Assembly: GCA_001464425.1 (NCBI GenBank)
Contig: LNEK01000044.1
Span: 5,001 to 69,000, forward strand
Source: Alphaproteobacteria bacterium Ga0077535
GTDB lineage: Bacteria; Pseudomonadota; Alphaproteobacteria; Caulobacterales; Aquidulcibacteraceae
DNA length: 64,000 nucleotides
Reading direction: 5' to 3'
Positions 39,575 through 41,978 of the stretch are shown piece after piece. The notes under the pieces were generated by a model. The model worked only from the letters and a program-made list of their open reading frames with translations, ran no database searches and was not told where the DNA came from. Each line of letters starts with the position of its first letter. Positions within the stretch are counted from its first letter, which is position 1. A program made the position numbers and the translations under genes.

Positions 39575-40141
39575 ATGCGCCATTGGATTGGAATTTTCGC
39601 GGCGCTCGCGCTCAGCGCGTGCGGTCAAAGCGACGACGCCAGTGTAGCGCAAAACGGCTGCGCACGCACGGCGACGCACGACGTCACTTGGTCGCGCACC
39701 GATGCGCCAGATGTGATCACAACCAGTTCGCAAGGGCCGACCTGCGCGCAAGCCGTGGTGACGTTCGTCGCGCGTGATGCTTCAGGCAATGCGCTCTGGG
39801 CCTTCTCGTCGACCTATTACGACCTGGTCGTCGGCGGCGAGCCGCCAGAAGACGCGACTGAGGTGACCGCCGAACAAGTGGATACATTCTTGCGCGGGTG
39901 GGCGGATGTCACCGTATCGCGCACGAGCACCTTGCCAGAATGGCGCGCCGACGCCGCCACCCTGACCGAAAGCGCCAGCGTCTTCGCCTACGATACGCCG
40001 TTTGAGCGCGAGACTTATGAGATGCTGCGCCAACGCGATCTCGCAACCATCTGTTACGCCGCCGCAGCTGAAGCAACACAATGCCTCATCATCGATCCTG
40101 TATCCCAGTCGCCAACAATGATCGTGGCCTACGGTCCGTGA
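39575..40141 (+). CDS. Hypothetical lipoprotein, tandem paralogue 1
   Basis: A 188-residue lipoprotein (lipobox LSAC, Cys16) with four further cysteines placed as in the next two genes. The pattern TCAQAVVTFVARDASGNALW is followed by a region with FLRGWADVTVS, and near the end ICYAAAAEATQC. No known domain recognised. GTGA overlap with the next gene shows an operon of three related genes. Confidence 0.75.
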   Translation: MRHWIGIFAALALSACGQSDDASVAQNGCARTATHDVTWSRTDAPDVITTSSQGPTCAQAVVTFVARDASGNALWAFSSTYYDLVVGGEPPEDATEVTAEQVDTFLRGWADVTVSRTSTLPEWRADAATLTESASVFAYDTPFERETYEMLRQRDLATICYAAAAEATQCLIIDPVSQSPTMIVAYGP

Positions 40142-40662
40142 GGCTTCTTCTTGTGGCGGCTGTCGCTATCGTCGTCAGCGCGTGCGCGCGTGCGCCGGTG
40201 CAAGCGAGCTGCGAATTCCAATCAGCGCACGAACTTGCCTTCACAGCGCCGGACGCTGCCGACACCATCGTTGCAGAATCGCTCGGCGAGGCGTGCGACA
40301 AAGCCGTGGGCCTCTTGGTGATCCGCGCCGCCGATGGATATCCGATCTGGTCGTGGAGCGCCCCGCTCTCGCATCGCTTCGGCAACGTGTTCGCGCCGGA
40401 CGACACCGAACATATGGTGTCTTTCCTGGAAGCGTGGGCGCAACCCGAGATTACCACCACACAATCAGCGCCGGCCTGGGACACGCTCGTGCCCGCGCAA
40501 ACCACGCTCGATCAACTCACATATGAAGACGTACGTGCGCGCGATCTGCCGATGTTATGCCACTTTTCAGGAACAGCACGGCAGACGTGCGTGTTCTGGG
40601 AGCCTGCCGCCGGCGGCGCGGGCCACATGCTAGATCGCGACGCAGAGGAACCCGAAGAATGA
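40138..40662 (+). CDS. Hypothetical lipoprotein, tandem paralogue 2
   Basis: A 174-residue lipoprotein (VVSAC, Cys16) related to the flanking genes: ACDKAVGLLVIRAADGYPIW matches the same segment in paralogue 1, and FLEAWAQPEITTTQ and MLCHFSGTARQTCVFWEP follow in the same order. Start is GTG 40138 overlapping the previous stop; its own stop overlaps the ATG of paralogue 3. Function unknown. Confidence 0.75.
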   Translation: MRLLLVAAVAIVVSACARAPVQASCEFQSAHELAFTAPDAADTIVAESLGEACDKAVGLLVIRAADGYPIWSWSAPLSHRFGNVFAPDDTEHMVSFLEAWAQPEITTTQSAPAWDTLVPAQTTLDQLTYEDVRARDLPMLCHFSGTARQTCVFWEPAAGGAGHMLDRDAEEPEE

Positions 40663-41231
40663 TGAGACGCGCTGGACTTGCTGTTATCGCCCTTGGCCTC
40701 GCGGCTTGCTCGCCGCCGGCGCCGGCCACGACGACAGCCGAGATCCCGTCGACGCCGGCGAATGCTCAAAGCGGATGCAACGCCGAAACGTCGCGCGACT
40801 GGTCAGCCGTTGGCAGCCAATATTATGTCATCGAAGCGGAAGCGCACGGCGAAACGTGCCGCGATGCTGTAGCCACGCTTCGCATCAAATCTCTTGACGG
40901 CGCGGTGCTGTTCACGCGCGAGTACCCGACAGCGCAAGTACCGCTCGCCTTCAATCCCAACAGCGATCAAACCGGTCTGCGCGCTGAGCTTGACGGCTGG
41001 ATCGTCAACACCGCCGAGCCCGCCACAGCCGACATACTCCCGGCGTGGCCCAATGGCGCCGCACGCCCCCCAGGCTTTGAGCCGGCCGTTGCGCGCAACC
41101 GCTACGAAGGCGCGCGCGGCGCGCAAGGCCCGCTCTTTTGCTTCCCCGATGGAGGCGAGAGCAACGCCTGCGTTTCGCTCGCGGGCGACACCGCAACACT
41201 GCTTGGCTCGCTCACGCCCGAGCGCCCATAG
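40659..41231 (+). CDS. Hypothetical lipoprotein, tandem paralogue 3
   Basis: A 190-residue lipoprotein (lipobox GLAAC, Cys17) of the same family: TCRDAVATLRIKSLDGAVLF aligns with the equivalent parts of the two preceding proteins, and LDGWIVNTAEP and LFCFPDGGESNACVSLA complete the shared order. ATG 40659 overlaps the previous stop (ATGA); a second ATG follows at once. A terminator begins 110 bases after the stop. Confidence 0.75.
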   Translation: MMRRAGLAVIALGLAACSPPAPATTTAEIPSTPANAQSGCNAETSRDWSAVGSQYYVIEAEAHGETCRDAVATLRIKSLDGAVLFTREYPTAQVPLAFNPNSDQTGLRAELDGWIVNTAEPATADILPAWPNGAARPPGFEPAVARNRYEGARGAQGPLFCFPDGGESNACVSLAGDTATLLGSLTPERP

Positions 41232-41341
41232 CCGCCGCAGATTCGCCTTATGTGCGTCGAGAGCACAGCGGCCACGCCTCTTACAGCATGAATTAGCTAT
41301 GGCGCTTTTCAGACGCCGCGACGCATCCTATCTTGATGCTT

Positions 41342-41368
41342 CCGGCGGCTCATCGCCGGTTTGTTTTT
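41342..41368 (+). terminator. Intrinsic terminator upstream of the micro-ORF
   Basis: Six-base stem CCGGCG/CGCCGG, loop GCTCAT, then TTTGTTTTT. It probably ends the lipoprotein operon transcript, just before the strong ribosome binding site at 41370. Confidence 0.75.
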
Positions 41369-41369
41369 G

Positions 41370-41383
41370 AAAGGAGGTGATCC
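41370..41383 (+). promoter_or_regulatory. 14-base Shine-Dalgarno, full complement of the 16S rRNA tail
   Basis: AAAGGAGGTGATCC is the exact reverse complement of the 3' end of bacterial 16S rRNA (GGATCACCTCCTTT), six bases before ATG 41384. A match this long is unusual for an ordinary gene. GAGGTG within it can alternatively pair with CACCTC at 41428-41433 inside the micro-ORF. Confidence 0.8.
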
Positions 41384-41452
41384 ATGTCTCATTGTCACGC
41401 GTTAGGGGCACTGTCGCAGGCTTGGACCACCTCGCAGGTGGCGCGCTCCTAA
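41384..41452 (+). CDS. Micro-ORF of 22 codons behind an extreme Shine-Dalgarno
   Basis: Reads MSHCHALGALSQAWTTSQVA followed by RS and TAA. The evidence that it is translated is the 14-base SD with ideal spacing. The 3' part contains a perfect hairpin CCACCT (41427-41432) CGC AGGTGG (41436-41441), whose left arm overlaps CACCTC that could pair with the SD, so two exclusive structures are possible. It is bracketed by terminators on both sides and no gene follows on this strand, so it may be an independent small RNA with a translated peptide. Not recognised. Confidence 0.5.
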   Translation: MSHCHALGALSQAWTTSQVARS

Positions 41453-41481
41453 ACGATCGCCCCATCGGGGTTTGACAATGG

Positions 41482-41520
41482 AAGGGCCGTGGAGCGTAAG
41501 CTCTGCGGCCCTTCGATTTA
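41482..41520. terminator. Strong hairpin terminator between micro-ORF and DUF3008 gene
   Basis: Fourteen-base stem 41482-41495 with 41500-41513 (two G-U pairs), loop GTAA, moderate T content on either side. Preceded by a weaker CCCC-ATC-GGGG-TTT hairpin at 41460-41473. Confidence 0.75.
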
Positions 41521-41850
41521 TTGGCGCGTACGTTTGGCTTTCGCCTGCTTGCGCGGCGGCGCTTTTTTCACGGCTTTCTTCGCCTTCGGCTTAGACGTTT
41601 TCTTTGCGCTGCGCGGGCGCGATTTCACCGCGCGCTTGGCCGAGGACTTGGCCGCCGATTTGCGCCCGTCTTCGACATGTTCTGGTTTGCCCTTACGCTT
41701 GGTCGAGGCGAGATCATCGAGCTGGGTCTCATTCATGGTTTCGAACATTTGCCGCGAAGCGCCCTTCAGCGCGCCGGTTTTAGTCTCGCCGCGTTTGGCG
41801 GAGAGTGCGGCGCCAGCGGCTTTCTGCTGCGCCTTAGATTTTGCAGGCAT
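41518..41850 (-). CDS. DUF3008 family protein with lysine-rich tail
   Basis: A 110-residue very basic protein. Residues 1-65 (MPAKSKAQQKAAGAALSAKR, then MFETMNETQLDDLASTKRKG) match DUF3008, small proteins of unknown role. The remaining ~45 residues are Lys/Ala/Pro/Arg repeats (KKAVKKAPPRKQAKAKRTRQ) like the histone H1 tail, suggesting nucleic acid binding. ATG 41850 opens the conserved region. Confidence 0.88.
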   Translation of the reverse strand: MPAKSKAQQKAAGAALSAKRGETKTGALKGASRQMFETMNETQLDDLASTKRKGKPEHVEDGRKSAAKSSAKRAVKSRPRSAKKTSKPKAKKAVKKAPPRKQAKAKRTRQ

Positions 41851-41978
41851 GTGCGCGTAACTCCGTTGCGAGTTCGAACAACGCTGCGTTTGGAACCGCT
41901 GTTCCAGGCGCGCGCGCAAAGAAAGAGGGCGGGGATTGCTTCCCGCCCCTCAAGGTCACCAGCGTAAACTTAAACCGA

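Follow-up and report, generated by a model that had tools for sequence, protein, structure and literature searches.

A divergent homolog of the Caulobacter sRNA CC2171 with a long Shine-Dalgarno sequence, a maintained short frame and a long-range helix

The element at positions 41342-41520 of the window (the whole 64,000-nt stretch of Alphaproteobacteria bacterium Ga0077535 that was analysed) is, judged from its sequence, a divergent homolog of the Caulobacter sRNA CC2171 (Rfam RF01867). We hold this identity, together with the anatomy listed below, with high confidence. The best reading of the element is a standalone, probably translated RNA that acts via ribosome capture, to which we give a probability of about 60%; ribosome capture as the purpose of the RNA is, taken by itself, a tentative proposal. 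The earlier note on this DNA had described a 14-base Shine-Dalgarno (SD), a 22-codon ORF, a hairpin within the ORF and a terminator, and each of these is confirmed in the sequence. The features are as follows.

41303-41307 and 41329..41334, + strand: putative promoter, an upstream CGCTT and a -10-like TATCTT, conserved as cgcTT and ccTATcTT in the 23-copy genus alignment
41342..41359, + strand: 5' hairpin CCGGCGG-CTCA-TCGCCGG, conserved as CCGGCg...cGccGG in 23 genus copies, terminator-like by scan
41361..41511, + strand: match to RF01867 (CC2171), model positions 1-159 of 159, 65.4 bits, cut-off 75
41370..41383, + strand: 14-nt SD AAAGGAGGTGATCC, complementary to the 16S rRNA tail
41384..41452, + strand: 22-codon ORF MSHCHALGALSQAWTTSQVARS, ATG at 41384, stop TAA at 41450-41452, 22 aa
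41390..41397, + strand: 5' arm of the long-range helix, CATTGTCA, within codons 3-5
41427..41441, + strand: ORF hairpin CCACCT-CGC-AGGTGG, arms at 41427-41432 and 41436-41441
41428-41433, + strand: CACCTC within the ORF hairpin, an alternative partner of GAGGTG in the SD
41473..41480, + strand: 3' arm of the long-range helix, TGACAATG
41481..41514, + strand: intrinsic terminator stem of 15 pairs, followed by GATTTATT (terminator scan)

The duplex of the SD with the 16S tail has 15 pairs and -29.7 kcal/mol, against -8.4 and -14.5 kcal/mol for two made-up ordinary SDs. The 12-mer AAGGAGGTGATC has a single occurrence in the element's own 3.96-Mb assembly; because the 16S tail would also contain it, the assembly seems to be without a complete 16S 3' end. 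The element region folds 4.1 SD (standard deviations) below dinucleotide shuffles. This folding, the single occurrence of the 12-mer and the presence of homologs in all but three of the 30 genus genomes (see below) place the original observation beyond chance. The terminator scan gave three terminator-like sites, against 1.8 +/- 1.5 in shuffles, and by itself does not exceed chance. What supports the terminator-like stems is conservation: a script called such a stem in 136 of 137 homolog records. The earlier note had the ORF bracketed by terminators. The downstream one holds, and the upstream one is more likely the RNA's own 5' hairpin. In the 23 genus copies the promoter-like cgcTT...TATcTT lies a few bases 5' of the CCGGCG...CGCCGG hairpin, and from this position just 3' of a conserved promoter-like motif we read the hairpin at 41342-41359 as probably the 5' stem of the transcript and not the terminator of an upstream gene. 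A sigma-70 scan reported no promoter at the element.

It had also been proposed that initiation is self-controlled, with the left arm of the ORF hairpin pairing with the SD. Such alternative pairing is possible in the window copy, whose ORF contains TTGGACCACCTC, a sequence close to the 16S tail itself. The proposal did not carry over to the family. The CCACCT/AGGTGG hairpin is present in L001 and, among close relatives, only in some (for example L002 and partly L004), and is not general in the family. Class-wide, the longest SD complement inside the ORF region averages 5.2 nt vs 4.9 nt in shuffles (at least 6 nt in 30/96), and SD accessibility is 0.43 in the real sequences vs 0.39 after interior shuffling. 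With complementarity near the shuffle level and accessibility not reduced, an SD/anti-SD switch was rejected as a family trait.

The window copy matches RF01867 over the full model with 65.4 bits and an E-value of 4.9e-13, which is significant and full-length, and yet falls below the curated cut-off of 75 bits. It also has the long-range helix (CATTGTCA/TGACAATG) and the terminator (stem 41481-41514) of that family. At gathering thresholds, a search of the window with Rfam returned nothing but one tRNA. Relatives do exceed the cut-off: five of 20 relative loci tested (L030, L052, L093, L097, L098), including L052, which belongs to a different genus within the window's family, and two genomes of family f3 in the same order (G042 and G046) also reach it. 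It is the combination of a whole-model match below the cut-off with relatives above it that leads us to call the element a divergent homolog.

By BLASTN, DNA homologs are found in 27 of the 30 genomes of the genus, its own included, the three misses being 65-82% complete; outside the genus just 3/31 genomes have one. The RF01867 model reaches further. At E <= 0.001 it matches 85/385 genomes of the class, 13 above the cut-off, under strict filters that lose weak matches, and one of 14 control genomes, which is Caulobacter vibrioides. At E <= 0.01, 29/41 relatives match, as does a second control, Deinobacterium chartae, below the cut-off. The element is conserved among relatives. The pattern AGGAGGTGATCC-N(0-8)-TGTC, chance matches counted in, occurs in 152/299 genomes of the order and 70/385 of the class; the reversed AGGAGGTGATCC-TGTC pattern occurs in one genome among the matches listed in the class search. 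Because the patterns used to gather most copies demand an SD, part of the constancy of the SD in this collection comes from how the copies were selected. RF01867 matches lacking the exact 12-mer had GGAGGTG[A/G]TC in 9/9 inspected, although the SD is also part of the model.

With a tighter pattern, one that leaves out the type present in the window, at least 119 stretches were found in named genomes. The matches listed are Alphaproteobacteria by name, save one Gemmatimonadetes MAG and one record labelled only Pseudomonadota. They comprise many Sphingomonadales, Mesorhizobium and other Hyphomicrobiales, Azospirillum, Hyphomonadaceae, Oceanicaulis and others. The match in the MAG labelled Gemmatimonadetes (L188) is an SD plus TTG and may be contamination, transfer or chance. 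SD-based patterns also have a source of false matches in AGGAGGTGATCCTGTC, which recurs inside long reading frames that are often KEVILSGGA-like (L456-L468).

The short frame is maintained across the family. Among 96 representatives, which were taken from 133 records and are pairwise below 80% by our own score, the start codon is ATG in 50, GTG in 42 and TTG in four. C was not among the first bases that the script accepted (A, G or T), and CTG was checked apart: 13 C-start pattern matches (among the matches listed) all lie in open frames of 113-233 codons and all lack the family GAAAGG, and were rejected as chance matches. One base separates the ATCC of the SD from the start in 82/96 and none does in 13; the remaining one is an SD variant. 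Frame 0 meets no stop for at least 18 codons in 94 representatives, against 44 and 54 for the other frames and a mean of 68 (maximum 84) over 200 rounds of shuffling. It is closed before the terminator in all 96, against 71 and 75 for the other frames and a shuffle mean of 55 (maximum 66). The shuffles are the fairer control, since the early stops of frame +2 are in part due to a shared TCTAGTGA/TCGAGTGA motif, which puts a stop there. The frame is 14-36 codons long, with a median of 24; three loci with 55-56-residue frames (L075, L177, L178) were left out of both the 133 records and the 96 representatives.

Without translation, it is difficult to see why a short frame should be maintained, and we consider translation of the family RNA very probable. 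The reading under which the sRNA is purely non-coding, as Rfam has it, and its SD-like stretch and open frame are incidental would agree with the typing of RF01867 as an sRNA gene and with a helix that is an RNA-level feature. It leaves unexplained why start codons are kept and why the frame closes before the terminator in 96/96 against a shuffle mean of 55, and we regard it as highly improbable. The element resembles a dual-function sRNA, in that an ORF is kept on an independent small transcript. That transcript is predicted here; in Mesorhizobium huakuii, the RF01867-annotated MH_s33 was sequenced as a 215-nt transcript (PMC5596092).

It was also suggested that the ORF might be a small peptide gene. 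In its usual sense this did not survive a comparison of pN/pS, computed beyond the first four or five codons. In the window's genus (23 sequences) pN/pS is 0.91, with off-frames at 0.93 and 0.79, which is not the purifying selection expected of a small protein. The value is 1.06 in family f3 (18 sequences), 1.33 in the Sphingomonadales-type MSHG copies (52) and 1.32 in the Rhizobiales-type copies (18); off-frame values are lower in these three groups and in the genus, with the one genus off-frame of 0.93 as the exception. Peptides are unalike between groups, and a comparison of nine of them with Pfam and NCBIfam gave no family above noise. On these figures the peptide appears unconstrained in most groups examined.

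Some lineages differ. Two other groups have values of 0.76 (f2, 16 sequences; off-frames 0.93 and 0.95) and 0.63 (g6, seven sequences; off-frames 0.65 and 0.92), and weak constraint is possible there. Five Azospirillum copies (L214, L245, L253, L297, L299) encode 57-59 residues with a signal-like N-terminus, and their pN/pS of 0.46, with off-frames at 1.13 and 1.43, indicates purifying selection. In Azospirillum the frame has apparently turned into a protein, which would thus have arisen out of an RNA gene. The 55-56-residue frames of the three excluded loci are similar in kind. A conventional small-protein gene, whose short peptide is the product and whose sequence matters, would account for these three groups as well as for the kept frame and start codons. 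It is nevertheless improbable for the family, given the values of 0.91 to 1.33 in the four other groups, the dissimilar peptides and the empty database comparison.

A further conserved feature is a helix between codons 2-5 and the bases immediately 5' of the terminator, which in the window is CATTGTCA/TGACAATG. Its two arms vary jointly across the class, as in CATTCTC/GAGAATG, CATAGTT/GACTATG, CACCAAA/TTTGGTG and GTGAG/CTCAC, and further in GTGATT/AATCAC, GTGTTT/AAACAC, CATGGTT/GACCATG and CATGAAT/ATTCATG. When nothing but the terminator is used to place the 3' side, 98/136 records (60 distinct 5' arms) have at least five contiguous Watson-Crick pairs, and 38/136 have no such helix at the tested place; among mismatched combinations of 5' and 3' arms (differing 5' arms) 7.4% reach five contiguous pairs. 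The 136 records are 145 less eight chance or disrupted ones (L020, L051, L078, L086, L089, L139, L140, L171) and one without a terminator call (L149). The covariation score is 0.481 vs 0.187 +/- 0.026 in shuffles (0/500) and at most 0.147 when slid, in a count of 31/55 distinct sequences; these were selected by eye because their 3' anchors are clear, which biases the count towards the helix. In the same count, 69.4% vs 50.7% of helix cells are paired and 59 vs 23.8 cells are changed on both sides. Two of the five measures are weak, namely both-side-changed pairs (7 vs 6.0; 125/500) and further pair types (23 vs 19.1; 15/500). The test on 136 records is the less biased of the two. An alignment of all 55 joined sequences (A2) had a gap-free interior that was out of register, and was set aside as unusable for pair counts. 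The predicted pairing probability of the helix exceeds 0.5 in 59/96 representatives.

The helix thus covaries between codons 2-5 and the pre-terminator bases. Of peptide and structure, whose conservation in relatives the earlier note had raised as a check, structure is conserved, and the peptide, in most groups, is not. Two individual loci may be mentioned here. L051, which was dropped from the helix set, in hindsight resembles a family member. L182 (in G006) is an altered copy without the 3' arm, in which we found no helix; a GGATCACCTCC stretch resembling the 16S tail follows its short frame.

In the window, an ORF on the minus strand (41518-41919) adjoins the element downstream. We judge it to be a convergent next gene, with no close same-strand gene downstream. 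Neighbours were compared for 24 loci, with ORFs of at least 90 aa counted in flanks no longer than 1.5 kb, and three pairs shared one. Two pairs belong to the window's family, namely L001/L054, whose shared gene is upstream, and L053/L056; the third, L001/L030, spans two families. In L053/L056 and L001/L030 the shared neighbours lie on the strand opposite to the element, and no shared co-directional downstream gene was found among these 24 loci with their short flanks. A short ORF followed by a terminator is what an attenuator or leader would look like, in which translation of the ORF controls a downstream gene. With few shared neighbours, two of three pairs on the opposite strand and a convergent next likely gene in the window, this explanation is the most remote of those considered, and the earlier statement that the ORF is not an ordinary leader peptide stands. 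Three genomes (G002, G006, G007) have, as in the window, lipoprotein-type and patatin/cyclic-nucleotide-type ORFs upstream and a lysozyme-like ORF downstream, all labels being our own reading of translations. The window's 39575-41231, upstream of the RNA, holds three consecutive overlapping lipoprotein-type ORFs, an arrangement that recurs in congeners.

Mobile elements appear to use the gene in two cases. In G002 it is apparently interrupted at a TGTCTCAT core, with one half at the end of contig C109 (L181) and the other at the start of contig C55 (L033). On C109 the sequence passes from the SD to foreign DNA, which brings a new short frame MSHVSAEGMRLL, a compensating helix formed by CATGTGTC/GGCATATG and a terminator of its own, and on C55 foreign DNA is joined to the original 3' half. 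Both halves match RF01867 (E-values of 2.8e-6 for the rebuilt copy and 1.8e-9). With the two halves on different contigs, we infer an insertion. The second case is a provirus contig (L386:3866-5320), which carries a family copy and, after it, an integrase gene (phrog_1, 8.4e-15; the Pfam PF00589 match of 2.6e-4 is below its cut-off); the frame of this copy carries a local CATTGTC-ACTC-GACAATG hairpin. Both look like integration sites of the tRNA type in which the mobile element rebuilds the gene. With tRNA and tmRNA genes as integration sites, the likeness is that a mobile element apparently splits the gene and brings a replacement 3' half; the difference is that only two cases are seen here.

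A motif screen of 171 other loci gave no convincing integrase near the element, its 10 matches being judged spurious. Four viral loci resemble family copies (L342, L347, L386, L432), among the matches listed (80 viral loci and others). Two of them (L342 and L432) are of the same type as L158 and have a tRNA-Gly nearby. In L432 an integrase-like ORF (our reading) lies on the far side of the tRNA-Gly; for this reason the tRNA, and not the RNA gene, is taken as the att site. The single helix-pattern match in viral contigs (L335) lies inside a long reading frame and was dismissed as chance. A phage origin of the element was also rejected, with no BLASTN match between the window copy and 50,697 phage records.

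What might such an RNA do? A transcript of about 180 nt would arise from its own promoter, with predicted ends near 41340 and 41520, and would present a full-length SD and a start codon to the ribosome. The RNA would fold such that codons 2-5 pair with the bases immediately before the terminator. Ribosomes would very probably initiate on it and translate the short frame, the peptide being a by-product in most lineages examined. In doing so the RNA may capture initiating 30S subunits, and could either drain free 30S as a sink or sense it. We favour ribosome capture because selection preserves near-maximal SD pairing, initiation and the downstream helix. A point against titration is that a single-copy RNA would need to be very abundant. 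In a fuller and more speculative version, a dedicated ribosome-capturing RNA has a helix that reports or limits 30S engagement and a disposable peptide, and is rebuilt by mobile elements on integration. Of the options raised in the earlier note, a small regulatory RNA gains support, as a conserved small RNA of regulatory type, and a ribosome-titrating role is our preferred guess at its function.

The main rival to ribosome capture is a base-pairing sRNA or sponge, whose SD-like stretch baits anti-SD sRNAs (SisA-D/alphaR8, whose anti-SD signature is a 10-mer, or the CCUCCUCCC sRNAs) and whose translation only protects the RNA. Such sRNAs, and a sponge for SisA-D in Caulobacter, CrfA, are described in the same class in the relevant portions of two papers (PMC12559287, PMC3927594). 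Among the collected sequences no stretch is more constant than the SD, though most were collected by it. A sponge would have no need of the start codon, ORF and in-frame stop, all of which are kept; the GATCC extension of the SD falls outside the CCUCC motif, and the partner named in those portions of the literature is CrfA and not CC2171. We consider it unlikely. The peptide, leader and purely non-coding explanations fit less well than either ribosome capture or a sponge.

If ribosome capture or a sponge is right, the class would gain either an RNA regulator directed at the ribosome or, for its anti-SD sRNAs, a new partner that bears an SD. What Rfam types as an sRNA family appears to be translated, with selection acting on initiation and on the short frame and, outside a few groups, leaving the peptide free. 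Filters based on peptide conservation would overlook translated RNAs of the RF01867 kind.

We recognised no functional study of CC2171 in the open-access literature, where the relevant titles are the Rfam release and the Mesorhizobium sRNA survey. The window copy shares with RF01867 CC2171 a full-length alignment, the SD region, a TGTCTCATTGTC box, a GACAATGGA box and the terminator. It differs in scoring below the cut-off, relatives elsewhere in the class carry other 5' and 3' arm sequences, and the family is typed as sRNA in Rfam whereas an ORF is maintained here. Among other Alphaproteobacterial RNAs, Pos19 reportedly also has a short ORF on a small RNA. This likeness extends to rnTrpL/peTrpL (PMC10117765). 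These RNAs are discussed for a defined peptide or a stress role, whereas the peptide of our element appears unconstrained in most groups. The same paper, where it lists new candidates, places the 23-aa SEP1 of Sinorhizobium meliloti at the top in translation efficiency, and we note SEP1 as a lead only. Caulobacter ribosome profiling already exists, and the part of Schrader et al. that bears on ncRNAs gives two former Caulobacter ncRNAs as translated and other intergenic ncRNA regions as not, the latter a point against a translated RNA here (PMC4117421). Lastly, the extended SD sites of Staphylococcus aureus resemble the element in an SD-anti-SD pairing longer than usual (PMC13009471). There they are a general feature of start sites, and in another phylum, whereas AAGGAGGTGATC occurs once in the genome studied here.
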